Source: Candidatus Latescibacterota bacterium (lineage in GTDB: Bacteria; JAAXHH01; JACQVL01). From it: a DNA stretch of 10,418 nt. The position numbers were made by a program, and so were the translations under genes. The stretch covers positions 1 to 10,418 of the forward strand of contig JACQVL010000139.1 of the NCBI GenBank assembly GCA_016209865.1, read 5' to 3'. Under the pieces are notes generated by a model. That model ran no database searches and had not been told where the DNA came from. It worked only from the letters and a program-made list of their open reading frames with translations. Each line of letters opens with the position of its first letter. Within the stretch, counting starts at the first letter, position 1. Positions 1-10,418 of the stretch are shown here, in pieces.

Positions 1-426
1 ACCCTGGCGACGGGCGAGGCCTCCCCCGTCCTGAGTGACCGGTTTGCCGCCCTGCGAACGTGTCTGGATGCCGCCATCAGCATCATGCGGCCCGGGGTCA
101 AGGCGTCGGCCGTTCAGGCTCCGATGCAGGCGACGCTCAAGGCGTACGGCCTCACCGGCTCGTTCCCGCACGGGCATGGGGTGGGACTGGAAGTCCGCGA
201 CTACCCCATCATCGTCCCGGATAACGGGCTGCGCATCCGGGATGACTGCATCGATGTGCCGTCCGACCTGACGCTCGAAGCGGACATGGTGATCAACCTG
301 GAAGCCCCGCTGTTCATGCCGGGCGTCGGGTCGCTCCACATCGAGCAGTCGTTCGTCATCACGTCGAACGGCTGCCGGCCGCTCGTTTCGCAAGACCGGG
401 GAAGGATAGTGACAAGTGACGAGTGA
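1..426 (+). CDS. M24 family metallopeptidase (Xaa-Pro aminopeptidase/dipeptidase type), 3' part
   Basis: This is the C-terminal 141 residues of a pita-bread-fold M24 peptidase; the frame is open from base 1, so the start lies outside the window. Family members use two metal ions to cleave X-Pro bonds or related substrates in the cytoplasm. The sequence shows the metal-binding signature HGHGVGLEVRD at about residues 57-67 of the visible part, then MVINLEAP (Glu ligand) and HIEQSFVIT (second Glu ligand). The two Asp ligands and the N-terminal domain would lie upstream. The last codons (VTSDE and the TGA stop) are encoded by tandem AGTGACR heptamers, so the C-terminal tail probably comes from the repeat and is not conserved protein. 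The next gene begins within about 12 bases. M24 proteins include creatinase and methionine aminopeptidase relatives, so the exact substrate is open; family assignment is firm. Confidence 0.88.
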   Translation, partial: TLATGEASPVLSDRFAALRTCLDAAISIMRPGVKASAVQAPMQATLKAYGLTGSFPHGHGVGLEVRDYPIIVPDNGLRIRDDCIDVPSDLTLEADMVINLEAPLFMPGVGSLHIEQSFVITSNGCRPLVSQDRGRIVTSDE

Positions 427-435
427 CGAGTGACG
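408..435 (+). repeat. Tandem heptamer array AGTGACR x4
   Basis: Four contiguous 7-base units follow one another in phase: AGTGACA, then AGTGACG three times. The array covers the last codons and TGA stop (424-426) of the M24 gene and reaches to within 4 bases of the ATG (439) of the transporter gene. The same unit recurs at 2406-2440, and an isolated match (GTGACGAGTGA) lies over the stop of the gene ending at 9063. Function is unknown. Confidence 0.85.
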
Positions 436-438
436 AGA

Positions 439-2386: not shown

Positions 2387-2405
2387 GAGCGGGGACGGTA
2401 AAAAT

Positions 2406-2440
2406 AGTGACGAGTGACAAGTGACGAGTGACAAGTGACG
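2406..2440 (+). repeat. Tandem heptamer array AGTGACR x5
   Basis: Five contiguous in-phase units alternate AGTGACG and AGTGACA. They begin 19 bases after the MDR stop codon. The unit matches the array at 408-435, and the leading context (GGGGA.GG followed by ATAGTGAC) is also similar at the two sites, so the copied segment may be slightly longer than the heptamers. Confidence 0.87.
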
Positions 2441-2461
2441 AGAAAAATCCATCTTGGTTTT

Positions 2462-2489
2462 CACCGACCACCGATCACCGACCACCGAT
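2462..2489 (+). repeat. Tandem heptamer array CACCGAY x4
   Basis: Four contiguous units alternate CACCGAC and CACCGAT. They lie 21 bases after the AGTGACR array and just before the ribosome binding site of the CBM9-like gene. The unit sequence differs from its neighbour but the 7-base period is the same. Together the two arrays fill most of the 121-base gap between genes; no promoter is obvious there. Confidence 0.85.
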
Positions 2490-2493
2490 TGAG

Positions 2494-2500
2494 AAAGGAG
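2494..2500 (+). promoter_or_regulatory. Ribosome binding site supporting the GTG start at 2508
   Basis: AAAGGAG lies 7 bases upstream of GTG 2508. No in-frame ATG lies close to it, so the site decides the non-ATG start. Confidence 0.75.
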
Positions 2501-2507
2501 CCGCATC

Positions 2508-3326
2508 GTGCAGAAATTGTCCGAGGAACACCTGGAACGCATCAAGAAAGAGCCGCCGGACGACGTGGTGAAGATCCTGCGCGCCATCGAGACGATCACA
2601 CCGAAGCAGTACGTGTGCTACCGCGCGTGCGGGCCAATCACGATCGACGGTCGTTTAGATGAGCCGTCGTGGAAGAAAGCGCCGTGGACCGACCTGTTCG
2701 TCCACATCGATGACCCGAACAAGATCCCCTACCTGGCCACGCGGGCGAAGATGCTCTGGGACGACCAGTATTTCTACGTGGCCGCTGACCTGGAAGACCC
2801 CGACTGCTGGGGCGTCCTCACCCAGCGGGACGTGCCGGTGCCCGACCCGGACTTCGAGGTCTTCATCGACCCCGACGGGGACGCGCTCAACTACATGGAG
2901 ATGGAGATCAACGTCCTGAACGCGGTCTGGGACCTGTTGCTCGAGCATCCCTACCACCGCTGGACGCCGCCGCCCGGCTGGAACCCCACCGCCTGGGTCT
3001 GGAAAGGTATCAAGTCAGCGACGCAGGTGGACGGGACGCTGAACGCGCCGTGGATCGTGGATCAGGGATGGACGGTCGAGATCGCGTTCGACTGGGAGAG
3101 CATGGCCCCACAGTGCATCGGGATCAGTTGCCCGCCGAAGGACGGGGATCAGTGGCGGGTCAACATGTCGCGGGTACAGCGCAATCGAGAAGGGACGCTG
3201 ACCGACTGCGACTGGGTCTGGTCGTGTCAGGGCATCTACAACATGCACGTCCCCGAGATGTACGGCTGCGTCCAGTTCTCGGAGAAGATCGTGGGCACCG
3301 GCACTGATGAATTTATAGAACGGTAG
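2508..3326 (+). CDS. CBM9-like (DOMON-fold) carbohydrate-binding protein, no signal peptide
   Basis: The 272-residue product resembles family 9 carbohydrate-binding modules that form whole proteins. After an N-terminal lead of about 45 residues come the usual elements: ITIDGRLDEPSWKKAPW (about 45-61), ATRAKMLWDDQYFYVAADLED (the strand pair with DD and Y/V/A pattern), DFEVFIDPDGD followed by YMEMEINVLNAVWDLLL, the WTVEIAFDW strand and a C-terminal MHVPEMYGCVQFS. Such modules bind sugar ends in a tryptophan-lined cleft, and this protein is very rich in Trp. There is no signal peptide or membrane segment, so it is predicted to be cytoplasmic, which is unusual for a binding module; the start is GTG with a good ribosome site. 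Catalytic activity is not evident. It may bind or chaperone a sugar or glycan used by the neighbouring enzymes, but that is inference. Confidence 0.82.
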   Translation: MQKLSEEHLERIKKEPPDDVVKILRAIETITPKQYVCYRACGPITIDGRLDEPSWKKAPWTDLFVHIDDPNKIPYLATRAKMLWDDQYFYVAADLEDPDCWGVLTQRDVPVPDPDFEVFIDPDGDALNYMEMEINVLNAVWDLLLEHPYHRWTPPPGWNPTAWVWKGIKSATQVDGTLNAPWIVDQGWTVEIAFDWESMAPQCIGISCPPKDGDQWRVNMSRVQRNREGTLTDCDWVWSCQGIYNMHVPEMYGCVQFSEKIVGTGTDEFIER

Positions 3327-9075: not shown

Positions 9076-9825
9076 TTGAGCGCATTACAGGGACGCGTCG
9101 CCTGGGTGACAGGCGCAGGAACGGGGATAGGCCGGGGGATCGCCCTGGGCCTGGCTCATGCAGGAGCCGATCTGGTGTTAACCGGACGCAGACAAGAATT
9201 GCTGGAGGAGGTGGCGAACCTCGTCCGCGGCGCGGGACGGCAGGCGCGTGTGGCTGCCGTTGACGTGACCGACCGGGCCGGGATCGCGTGTGCGGTGGAC
9301 GAGACGACCCGGCGGTTCGGAGACATCCATCTGCTGGTCAACAACGCCGGGGTCAATACCATGCGGAGAACCGCGACCGAGATGACGCCGGAGGACTGGG
9401 ACTCGGTGGTCGCGGTCAACCTGACCGGCGCGTTCAACTGCTTCAGGGCGGTCTATCCGCAGATGCGGGAACGCGGGGACGGTCTGATCATCAACATCGC
9501 CTCGATGTCGGGGAAACAGACCTCCCTGCTAGGCGGCGCGGCCTACTGCGCCTCCAAGCACGGGATGGTCTCCCTCACCCACTCGATCAACCTGGAAGCC
9601 GCCGGTCATGGCATCCGGGCCTGCGCCATCTGTCCGGGCGAGGTCGATACCCCCATCCTGGCCATCCGCCCTGAGCCCGTGTCAGCGAAACGGCAATCGC
9701 TGATGCTCCAGCCGGAAGATATCGCCGCCGCGGTCGTCTTCGTGGCCAGTCTGCCGCCCCGCGTGGCCATCCCCGAGCTCTGGATCCTGCCGACCTATCA
9801 GGTGTCCGGCCAGCCGTTACCATAA
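9076..9825 (+). CDS. Short-chain dehydrogenase/reductase (SDR), classical type
   Basis: The 249-residue product is a classical SDR, a soluble Rossmann-fold oxidoreductase acting on hydroxyl or keto groups of sugars, steroids, fatty acids or similar. The cofactor loop TGAGTGIG is at 12-19, NNAG at 89-92, and the catalytic tetrad is N115, S143, Y157 and K161 (YCASK). After the second strand the sequence reads TGRR (36-39) with no acidic residue, which favours NADP(H). CPGEVDTPI at about 197-205 is the usual substrate-loop motif. Length is normal. It starts with TTG 12 bases after the GH127-like gene and shares its ribosome-site context, so it is likely in the same operon. By context it might oxidise L-rhamnose or L-arabinose released by the hydrolases, or an intermediate; SDR sequence alone does not show the substrate. 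Confidence 0.94.
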   Translation: MSALQGRVAWVTGAGTGIGRGIALGLAHAGADLVLTGRRQELLEEVANLVRGAGRQARVAAVDVTDRAGIACAVDETTRRFGDIHLLVNNAGVNTMRRTATEMTPEDWDSVVAVNLTGAFNCFRAVYPQMRERGDGLIINIASMSGKQTSLLGGAAYCASKHGMVSLTHSINLEAAGHGIRACAICPGEVDTPILAIRPEPVSAKRQSLMLQPEDIAAAVVFVASLPPRVAIPELWILPTYQVSGQPLP

Positions 9826-9900
9826 GGACGAAACAGCAAGGACGAAGGACGAAACAGCAAGGACGAAGAACAAAGGGCGAAGGACGAAACAGCAAGGGAA
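9824..9900 (+). repeat. Heptamer array AAGGACG / AAACAGC, 11 units
   Basis: Eleven contiguous 7-base units run in phase from the last two bases of the SDR stop codon. Six are exact copies of AAGGACG (at 9824, 9838, 9845, 9859 and 9880) or close variants (AAGGGCG, AAGGGAA, AAGAACA), and three are AAACAGC (9831, 9852, 9887). Exact count: five AAGGACG, three AAACAGC, three variants. AAACAGC always follows an AAGGACG, suggesting duplication of 14- or 21-base blocks. All bases are outside coding sequence except the stop overlap. Confidence 0.88.
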
Positions 9901-9964
9901 GCTATAGTTTTTCAGCAAATATATCTTTTTCGTCCTTCATACTTCGTCCTTCGTCCTTGTTTTT
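9837..9964. terminator. Possible bidirectional terminator between convergent genes
   Basis: Bases 9837-9853 (CAAGGACGAAGGACGAA) are perfectly complementary to 9943-9959, a 17-bp stem, and five T follow at 9960-9964. A second, inner pairing joins 9879-9889 with 9928-9938 (11 bp). The outer loop is long (89 bases), unlike a normal intrinsic terminator, so the role is uncertain. The position, between the ends of two converging genes, fits termination on both strands. The 30 bases at 9901-9930 in the loop are about three-quarters A+T. Confidence 0.45.
9931..9958 (-). repeat. Inverted heptamer array, 4 units of AAGGACG read on the minus strand
   Basis: On the + strand the units read CGTCCTT, CATACTT, CGTCCTT, CGTCCTT, all in phase; on the minus strand this is AAGGACG twice, AAGTATG, then AAGGACG. 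It is the same family as the direct array at 9824-9900 in the opposite orientation. It begins a few bases beyond the stop codon of the minus-strand gene. Confidence 0.85.
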
Positions 9965-9965
9965 C

Positions 9966-10418
9966 CTAAAACGCATCAAACTGATGCGGACCGTCCGGGA
10001 ACCAGACGCTGTCGACGAGGAAGGATAGTCCCTGCCCCAGCACGTAGCCCACCAGGATGCCGCCAAACAATGGCTGCACCTTCCGGTAGAGTCGCCCCCC
10101 ACCGATGCGCAGCAGGATCACCTGAATCAGCCAGGCTAAAAAAATGGGGAACACGGCGGCCACCGTCGGACCCGACGCCACGACGACCAGGCCGATGGGG
10201 TGGAGTGGCCACCAATAGAAGAAATACCGCCCGGCGCTCAGCAGGAGCAACAACACAACCCCGGACAGGAGGAACGTGATCTCCAACTGACTGACACGGG
10301 TCGCGTTGTTGATCCACTGGATGATCAGGTCATAGAACCCGACACCCAGCCCGCCGGGGTCGGTCCTGAGGTTGCGTGCGCCGAACGTATAGCCCGCCAC
10401 GATGATGTAGAGGAGGGC
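9966..10418 (-). CDS. Multi-pass membrane protein, DUF6785-like, C-terminal part
   Basis: The minus-strand frame is open to the right edge, so this is the last 150 residues of a longer protein whose start is outside the window. A GTG at 10398-10400 is an internal Val codon, because the frame continues upstream with ALLYII. Hydrophobic segments are visible at the edge (ALLYIIVAGY), at LEITFLLSGVVLLLLLSAG, at HPIGLVVVASG through FPIFLAWLIQVILL, and at FGGILVGYVLGQGLSFLV. The order WWPLHPIG, FxAWLIxxxxLRxGGxRLYRxxxPLFGGxLxG is what I recall from the C-terminal region of DUF6785/DUF6784 membrane proteins, common in Armatimonadota, Poribacteria and relatives. Their function is not known. The gene converges on the SDR gene and is therefore a separate transcription unit. 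The assignment rests on memory of the motif pattern. Confidence 0.65.
   Translation of the reverse strand, partial: ALLYIIVAGYTFGARNLRTDPGGLGVGFYDLIIQWINNATRVSQLEITFLLSGVVLLLLLSAGRYFFYWWPLHPIGLVVVASGPTVAAVFPIFLAWLIQVILLRIGGGRLYRKVQPLFGGILVGYVLGQGLSFLVDSVWFPDGPHQFDAF

Follow-up and report, generated by a model that had tools for sequence, protein, structure and literature searches.

Two heptamer arrays of different sequence, AGTGACR and CACCGAY, stand side by side in one 121-nt intergenic gap. Are they independent neighbors or parts of one element, and what accounts for their common period? The window analyzed here, meaning the whole stretch of 10,418 nt, is one entire contig (C84) of a source genome of 3.75 Mb that is 83% complete and assembled in 356 contigs. 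Tandem Repeats Finder recovers both of the arrays that a preliminary description of the window had placed in this gap (Table 1): AGTGACG in 5.3 copies at 2406-2442 and, within the tract 2461-2489, CACCGAC in 3.9 copies at 2462-2488, each with 100% matches when taken as a 14-mer (AGTGACGAGTGACA for the first). Both tracts do mix two variants of their unit (G/A and C/T), as that description had said; the strict alternation that it also saw is not general, since only 1 of 77 AGTGACR arrays has the last-base pattern GAGAG. The distance between the two tracts is about 18-21 nt. No dRS3-like palindrome lies within 2406-2489, though one is present in this position at other loci, and no Rfam match to a known RNA family was found anywhere in the window.

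Table 1. Heptamer tracts of the window and the features that adjoin them (positions in the window).
Feature	Position	Strand	Remarks
Unpaired AGTGACR x4 array	408-437	+	Overlaps the 3' end of a peptidase M24 ORF, whose TGA stop (424-426) lies within the array
Zinc-type alcohol dehydrogenase gene	1322/1367-2386	+	Upstream neighbor of the gap 2387-2507
Intergenic gap	2387-2507	+	121 nt, from the zinc-type alcohol dehydrogenase gene to the CBM9-like gene; contains the hybrid heptamer element
GGACGGTAAAAAT	2393-2405	+	Probable decayed outer-left TCGGTG arm plus spacer, as suggested by 22 TCGGTG/GGTCAGT-AGTGAC junctions
AGTGACR x5, putative inner-left G-rich arm	2406-2442	+	Begins 19 nt past the stop codon
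Spacer AAAAATCCATCTTGGTTT	2443-2460	+	Between the AGTGACR and CACCGAY tracts
CACCGAY x4 (RTCGGTG on the minus strand), putative outer-right arm	2461-2489	-	GTG start 19 nt beyond
CBM9-like gene	2508-3326	+	GTG start at 2508; downstream neighbor of the gap 2387-2507
AAGGACG-type left arm	9824-9897	+	Merges with the TAA stop of a short-chain dehydrogenase gene
TTCGTCC right arm	9929-9958	-	Same hairpin as 9824-9897; T5 follows; stop of the convergent gene 7 nt away

Seven is the favored period in this genome, to a degree that excludes chance. Period statistics were taken from a 341-kb part of it, mostly picked by contig number and including the window's own contig. At a tandem score of at least 14, this part holds 33 tracts of period 7, against 1 in a Markov control, and 0, 2, 1, 0, 0, 0, and 0 tracts of periods 6, 8, 9, 10, 11, 12, and 13, respectively; period 14, a multiple of 7, has 4. 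The expectation that period 7 is special and extends beyond the two tracts thus holds, with hundreds of such tracts genome-wide.

Structure and placement were studied in a sample of 0.89 Mb of the source genome, partly chosen for repeat matches, in which genes were called with a codon model made for this analysis. The sample contains 218 heptamer arrays, mostly intergenic and of two to five units. The main families are AGTGACR and GATTTTR, which are the most numerous, together with TCGGTGR (= CACCGAY), CAGGGGT, AAGGACG, CGGGGTW, AGTGGTC, GGCAGTR, and GCGGATT. The AGTGACR dimer AGTGACRAGTGACR occurs 564 times (288 + 276) in the 3.75 Mb, and the reversed pattern never. Last-base patterns of the 77 AGTGACR arrays are mostly GAG (17), GG (15), GAGG (7), and GCGG (7), and these arrays have common flanks, AAAA.C on the 5' side and AGTAAAA on the 3' side. 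The shared unit patterns (GAG, GAGG, and GCGG) and flanks indicate that the AGTGACR arrays are dispersed copies. The preliminary description had taken unlike sequences of one period to suggest a mechanism that counts seven bases, and not the copying of one element. That the period is kept and the sequence is not applies between families, where many unrelated units share the period here and in other phyla; the denial of copying fails within the AGTGACR family.

No sequence rule was found to unite the units. Aligned by EM, 156 distinct units reached 3.82 bits, against 3.42 +/- 0.10 after shuffling, and showed an amino/keto bias only, too weak for a recognition motif. A stop-codon cassette, in which period 7 would bring TGA into all frames, fits AGTGACR and was rejected because AAGGACG, GATTGCG, and CCCGAAC have no stop. 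About 15 arrays lie inside called genes (L049, L064, L067, L070, and L032), some with two families together; they are either insertions or calling errors.

We find that the arrays form inverted pairs of one geometry. An ungapped search for inverted arms, in which pairs were counted when they overlapped heptamer arrays, yields 59 pairs in the 0.89 Mb; their arms measure 18-40 nt, and the median length of their loops is 78 nt. The G-rich arm is 5' in all 59, across ten unit families, and loops are frequently single-copy while the arms are conserved. An inverted partner of the same unit accompanies 24 of 138 arrays (null mean 4.4, maximum 14); same-unit direct partners number 2, against 4.1 expected. 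For two-thirds of these arrays (92 of 138), no complementary stretch as long as 10 nt was detected up to 250 nt away.

Placement relative to genes is equally constrained. Arm edges cluster about -30 to +10 nt from the stop codon and lie mostly 11-34 nt from the next start, typically about 15 nt ahead of it. The element therefore occupies the gap from the stop codon to the ribosome-binding region that follows. Of the 148 arrays in tandem gaps, 84 fall within 25 nt of a stop, and the purine-rich strand is the coding strand in 64 of these 84 (P = 2e-6). Arrays are depleted between divergent genes, where 18 were counted and 46 would be expected (P = 2e-6). At the outer edges, at least five T in eight positions are found in 29% of cases, against a background of 12%. 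A strong U-tract is absent from 71% of right arms, so these hairpins are probably not canonical intrinsic terminators. RNA-level selection through tolerance of G-U pairs was considered and found no significant support, as G-U and A-C mismatches on the coding strand stand at 37:25 (P = 0.16).

Families are also nested in a consistent order. Neighbor counts over the 0.89 Mb place TCGGTG outside AGTGAC, which it precedes 18 times and follows once. AGTGAC is followed by a dRS3-like core 33 + 9 times, by its own inverted partner 14 times, and directly by inverted TCGGTG, as in the window, 7 times. The full form, seen elsewhere, reads TCGGTG - GGTNAAAATC - AGTGAC - core - mirrored arms. The dRS3-like palindrome TCATTCCCGCGNNNGCGGGAATCC has 126 exact copies genome-wide (e.g., L058:2983-3006 and L063:6178-6201) and lies in some hairpin loops. 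A second dispersed palindrome (GAGCGAAGCGAAGAATCC ... CTTCGCTGCGCTCAGGGTGACA) occurs in AGTGACR hairpin loops at L283:7781-7891 and L085:4515-4600. Mobility driven by a RAYT was set aside, there being no Y1_Tnp gene and no PF01797 match in the 83%-complete source genome.

This order bears on the window's own pair, which had been described as two different arrays side by side. The recurrence of AGTGAC followed by CACCGA argues for arms of a nested hairpin and against independent arrays that merely adjoin. The pair 2406/2461 is a hybrid of two units and not a same-unit inverted pair such as 9824/9929. From the sequence, its members are probably what is left of a nested hairpin, namely an inner-left and an outer-right arm whose partners were lost. 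GGACGGTAAAAAT, directly before the AGTGAC array, resembles the genome consensus GGTCGGT.AAAATC by sequence comparison. On the coding strand, the predicted fold of the gap 2387-2507 does not surpass that of shuffled sequence (z = +0.06), and on the opposite strand it does so weakly (z = -2.0); the poor coding-strand fold is consistent with a degenerate element. A T5 run after the right arm is absent at 2406-2489 and present at 9824-9958.

The window has three further heptamer tracts (408-437, 9824-9897, and 9929-9958). The array at 408-437 extends into the first possible start (430) of a cation-efflux gene. The AAGGACG/CGTCCTT hairpin at 9824-9966, which exactly occupies a convergent gap, has a predicted energy of -58.5 kcal/mol (z = -8.9 on the plus strand, about equal on the other). 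Between 4427 and 9063, genes for an alpha-L-rhamnosidase and a GH127 beta-L-arabinofuranosidase are adjacent and near oxidoreductases, resembling an ordinary plant-glycan utilization cluster.

Heptamer hairpins of this kind are spread across phyla. A scan for AGTGACR x4 returned at least 118 stretches, from Acidobacteria, Chloroflexi, Bacteroidetes, Nitrospirae, Verrucomicrobia, Gammaproteobacteria, Cyanobacteria, and others. Among the matches listed, 27 genomes carry 7 to 981 AGTGACR dimer matches each; in the 58 same-order database relatives searched beside the source genome, there are 0. Loci from other phyla, again among the matches listed, comprise 96 inverted pairs, placed in the same way as those of the source genome, and in 85 of them the G-rich arm is 5'; because the loci were found through AGTGACR, that unit dominates these pairs. 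Dozens of other heptamer units are also present at the listed loci, and with AGTGACR removed these loci hold 60 tracts of period 7 versus 10 of period 8.

Since the same-order relatives lack the AGTGACR dimer, orthologous gaps were compared in three congeneric Pyrinomonadaceae (Acidobacteria): BP17 (G059), BP15 (G060), and G086. We compared 43 orthologous gaps of 15-600 nt in BP17, counting hairpins with arms of at least 16 nt. BP17 and G086 both have a hairpin in 9 gaps, only one of them does in 2 and 3, and neither does in 29 (P = 2e-5). The association persists when divergent gaps are left out and a length of at least 60 nt is required in both genomes (counts of 9, 1, 3, and 11; P = 0.003), and 0 of 82 shuffled gaps have a hairpin. 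Most of the 9 shared gaps differ in unit (e.g., AGTGACR versus GTGAATCG, and GCAGTAA versus ACGATGA). A GGGGAAR heptamer hairpin at L324:8359-8503 corresponds to an octamer-type ATTGATTC in the orthologous G086 gap (L328), which suggests that the period itself can change at one orthologous gap.

Turnover is also visible over shorter distances. BP15 and BP17, which are 94% identical, show arm differences of 7 nt in their GTTTCAA and GGGGAAR hairpins, and the loop of the GTTTCAA hairpin has been replaced. An 88-nt GGTGAAT hairpin in BP17 faces a 32-nt plain gap in G086, and hairpin copies of 84-90 bp with about 85-93% identity are scattered genome-wide in Pyrinomonadaceae. The comparisons of BP17, BP15, and G086 thus show that copy number shifts in sevens and that units are replaced, while the hairpin tends to persist. 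This turnover was seen in Acidobacteria; by analogy of architecture, it may carry over to the source genome.

The element in the window is one among several hundred hairpin-like repeats just past stop codons in the source genome. Given the observed period, pairing, polarity, placement, nesting, and cross-phylum spread, and the unit replacement observed at orthologous gaps in Acidobacteria, we read the tracts, with a probability of roughly 0.6 for this reading as a whole, as arms of a unit-agnostic class of hairpin at gene 3' ends that probably acts in transcript ending. We infer the transcript-ending role, as we do how the elements spread and how the hybrid arose. Each arm consists of about 18-40 nt, or ~3-5 tandem heptamers, G-rich on the 5' side, with a unit word that varies by family and a period, polarity, and placement that stay constant. 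Elements follow stop codons directly and halt shortly ahead of the next ribosome-binding region, filling tandem and convergent gaps, and shells of different families nest in fixed order, often round a dRS3-like palindrome. Arms may change in 7-nt steps by slippage, loops may turn over, and families may replace each other at one gap. The most likely role would be that of a stem-loop at transcript 3' ends, in termination or end protection, with mobile or copied arms converging there. Such a stem-loop is favored by the placement, the depletion from promoter gaps, the moderate T enrichment at outer edges, and a report on Xanthomonas transcripts (PMC4692102). Counting against the reading are the scarcity of strong U-tracts, the lack of a significant G-U bias, the many arrays with no partner arm detected, and the poor fold of the window's own pair.

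The strongest rival, which is compatible with most of the anatomy, holds that these are selfish or neutral palindromes, MITE- or REP-like, that insert anywhere and are spared by purifying selection at sites between stop codon and ribosome-binding site, with no part in ending transcripts. We consider it a possible explanation, short of a probable one. Copies within a family do share unit patterns and flanks, the 84-90-bp hairpin copies of Pyrinomonadaceae are scattered, the 88-nt GGTGAAT hairpin of BP17 has a near-empty counterpart in the 32-nt gap of G086, and tight gaps allow few positions. The shared occupancy of orthologous gaps could likewise mean only that those gaps tolerate insertions. 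On the other hand, neither a Y1_Tnp (RAYT) gene in the 83%-complete genome nor a target duplication or dedicated transposase was found, and loops are often single-copy where arms are conserved. That different families share orthologous gaps is also unexpected under random insertion, unless the class of site is itself conserved. Polymerase slippage, in which the replicative polymerase favors a step of ~7 nt and arrays arise as independent mutational by-products, would explain the 7-nt differences between congeners. In many bacteria no repeat class is commoner than heptamers, and a polymerase contact length has been proposed as the reason (Mrazek 2007, as relayed in PMC4679880 and PMC4692102). 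Inverted pairing, uniform polarity, placement at stops, fixed nesting, and short fixed array lengths are not predicted by slippage, which is therefore unlikely as a complete account and plausible as the source of copy-number change.

On another reading, a regulatory protein recognizes seven-base steps and binds the tracts in tandem, in translational or transcriptional control, as suggested for TAACTGA in Beggiatoaceae, where translational control has been argued from start-proximal arrays (MacGregor 2015; PMC4679880). Arrays without partners speak for it. With at least 10 units in one architecture in one genome, equally many specificities would be needed; moreover, placement is stop-proximal, not start-proximal, and the hairpin is kept while units are swapped. 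We regard this reading as very improbable. Still less credit is due to G-quadruplex or i-motif elements of the kind proposed for Xanthomonas GGGAATC, even though the Xanthomonas and Nostoc repeats are placed identically and form inverted pairs too, and the CAGGGGT and CGGGGTW families have G-tracts. AGTGACR, GATTTTR, AAGGACG, and TCGGTGR (= CACCGAY) have the same architecture without GGG. The units themselves thus rule out quadruplexes as a general explanation, which could still suit the G-tract families. Since most families are without G-tracts, the shared feature is the stem-loop, and the elements here resemble quadruplex repeats in how they work without being such repeats.

Neither the transcript-end stem-loop nor the selfish-element reading accounts for the number seven. 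A bolder proposal, which we hold to be speculative and rather doubtful, is that selection or dedicated copying keeps a long period-7 hairpin, its 5' arm G-rich, at certain gene ends in many phyla. The word would be replaceable; what is conserved as "sequence" would be period and polarity, imposed by some machine that makes or recognizes steps of seven bases.

For decades, heptamer repeats have been described with no function assigned, and each description has dealt with a single group and at most a few units. In Cyanobacteria, short tandemly repeated repetitive (STRR) heptanucleotides form short tandem arrays with several units per genome. The link to them made in the preliminary description is apt as to array type, a likeness to AGTGACR and CACCGAY drawn by description only, but the closest precedent is GGGAATC/GGGGAYT of Xanthomonas and Nostoc (PMC4692102). 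TAACTGA direct repeats of Beggiatoaceae, Cyanobacteria, and Bacteroidetes (MacGregor 2015; PMC4679880) are likewise intergenic heptamer arrays, patchy over phyla, with 7-nt length differences in close strains. They differ in lying mostly just 5' of start codons and in being unpaired in the best-studied genome; the units here are others, and 84 of the 148 tandem-gap arrays are stop-proximal.

REP/BIME palindromes of the GTAG and CGTC classes, for which roles in termination and mRNA stability have been proposed (PMC3733652), are also high-copy and intergenic. Here, in contrast, we see tandem heptamers and long loops, with no RAYT gene found in the 83%-complete genome. Neisserial NIMEs are intergenic mosaics of the dRS3 palindrome ATTCCC(N8)GGGAAT and other repeats (PMC3898611). 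TCATTCCCGCGNNNGCGGGAATCC resembles this palindrome and has the same arms; in the CGCGNNNGC form, the spacer between ATTCCC and GGGAAT is 7, so the core is probably dRS3-like and not an exact dRS3. The flanking repeats also differ, being inverted heptamer arrays here and not RS elements.

The closest precedent was described by Rehm et al. (2015; PMC4692102), who reported the heptamer repeats GGGAATC in Xanthomonas and GGGGA(C/T)T in Nostoc and read them as G-quadruplexes; in Xanthomonas, transcripts often start or end at such repeats. The likeness is extensive: heptamers in about four units, often paired as convergent inverted arrays, lie near stops when on the coding strand and near starts when on the non-coding strand, are rare in divergent gaps and in genes, and are found in the same gaps of related species with variable sequence. 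Those genomes have one G-tract unit type each, whereas here there are ten families, mostly without G-tracts, in another lineage, with fixed nesting round dRS3-like palindromes and with unit replacement between Acidobacteria. This speaks against quadruplex formation as a general explanation of heptamer repeats. Ten unit families share one hairpin geometry in one genome, and the unit is swapped at the same gap between congeneric Acidobacteria. The question thus shifts from what word is bound to what holds a period-7 stem-loop at gene ends.
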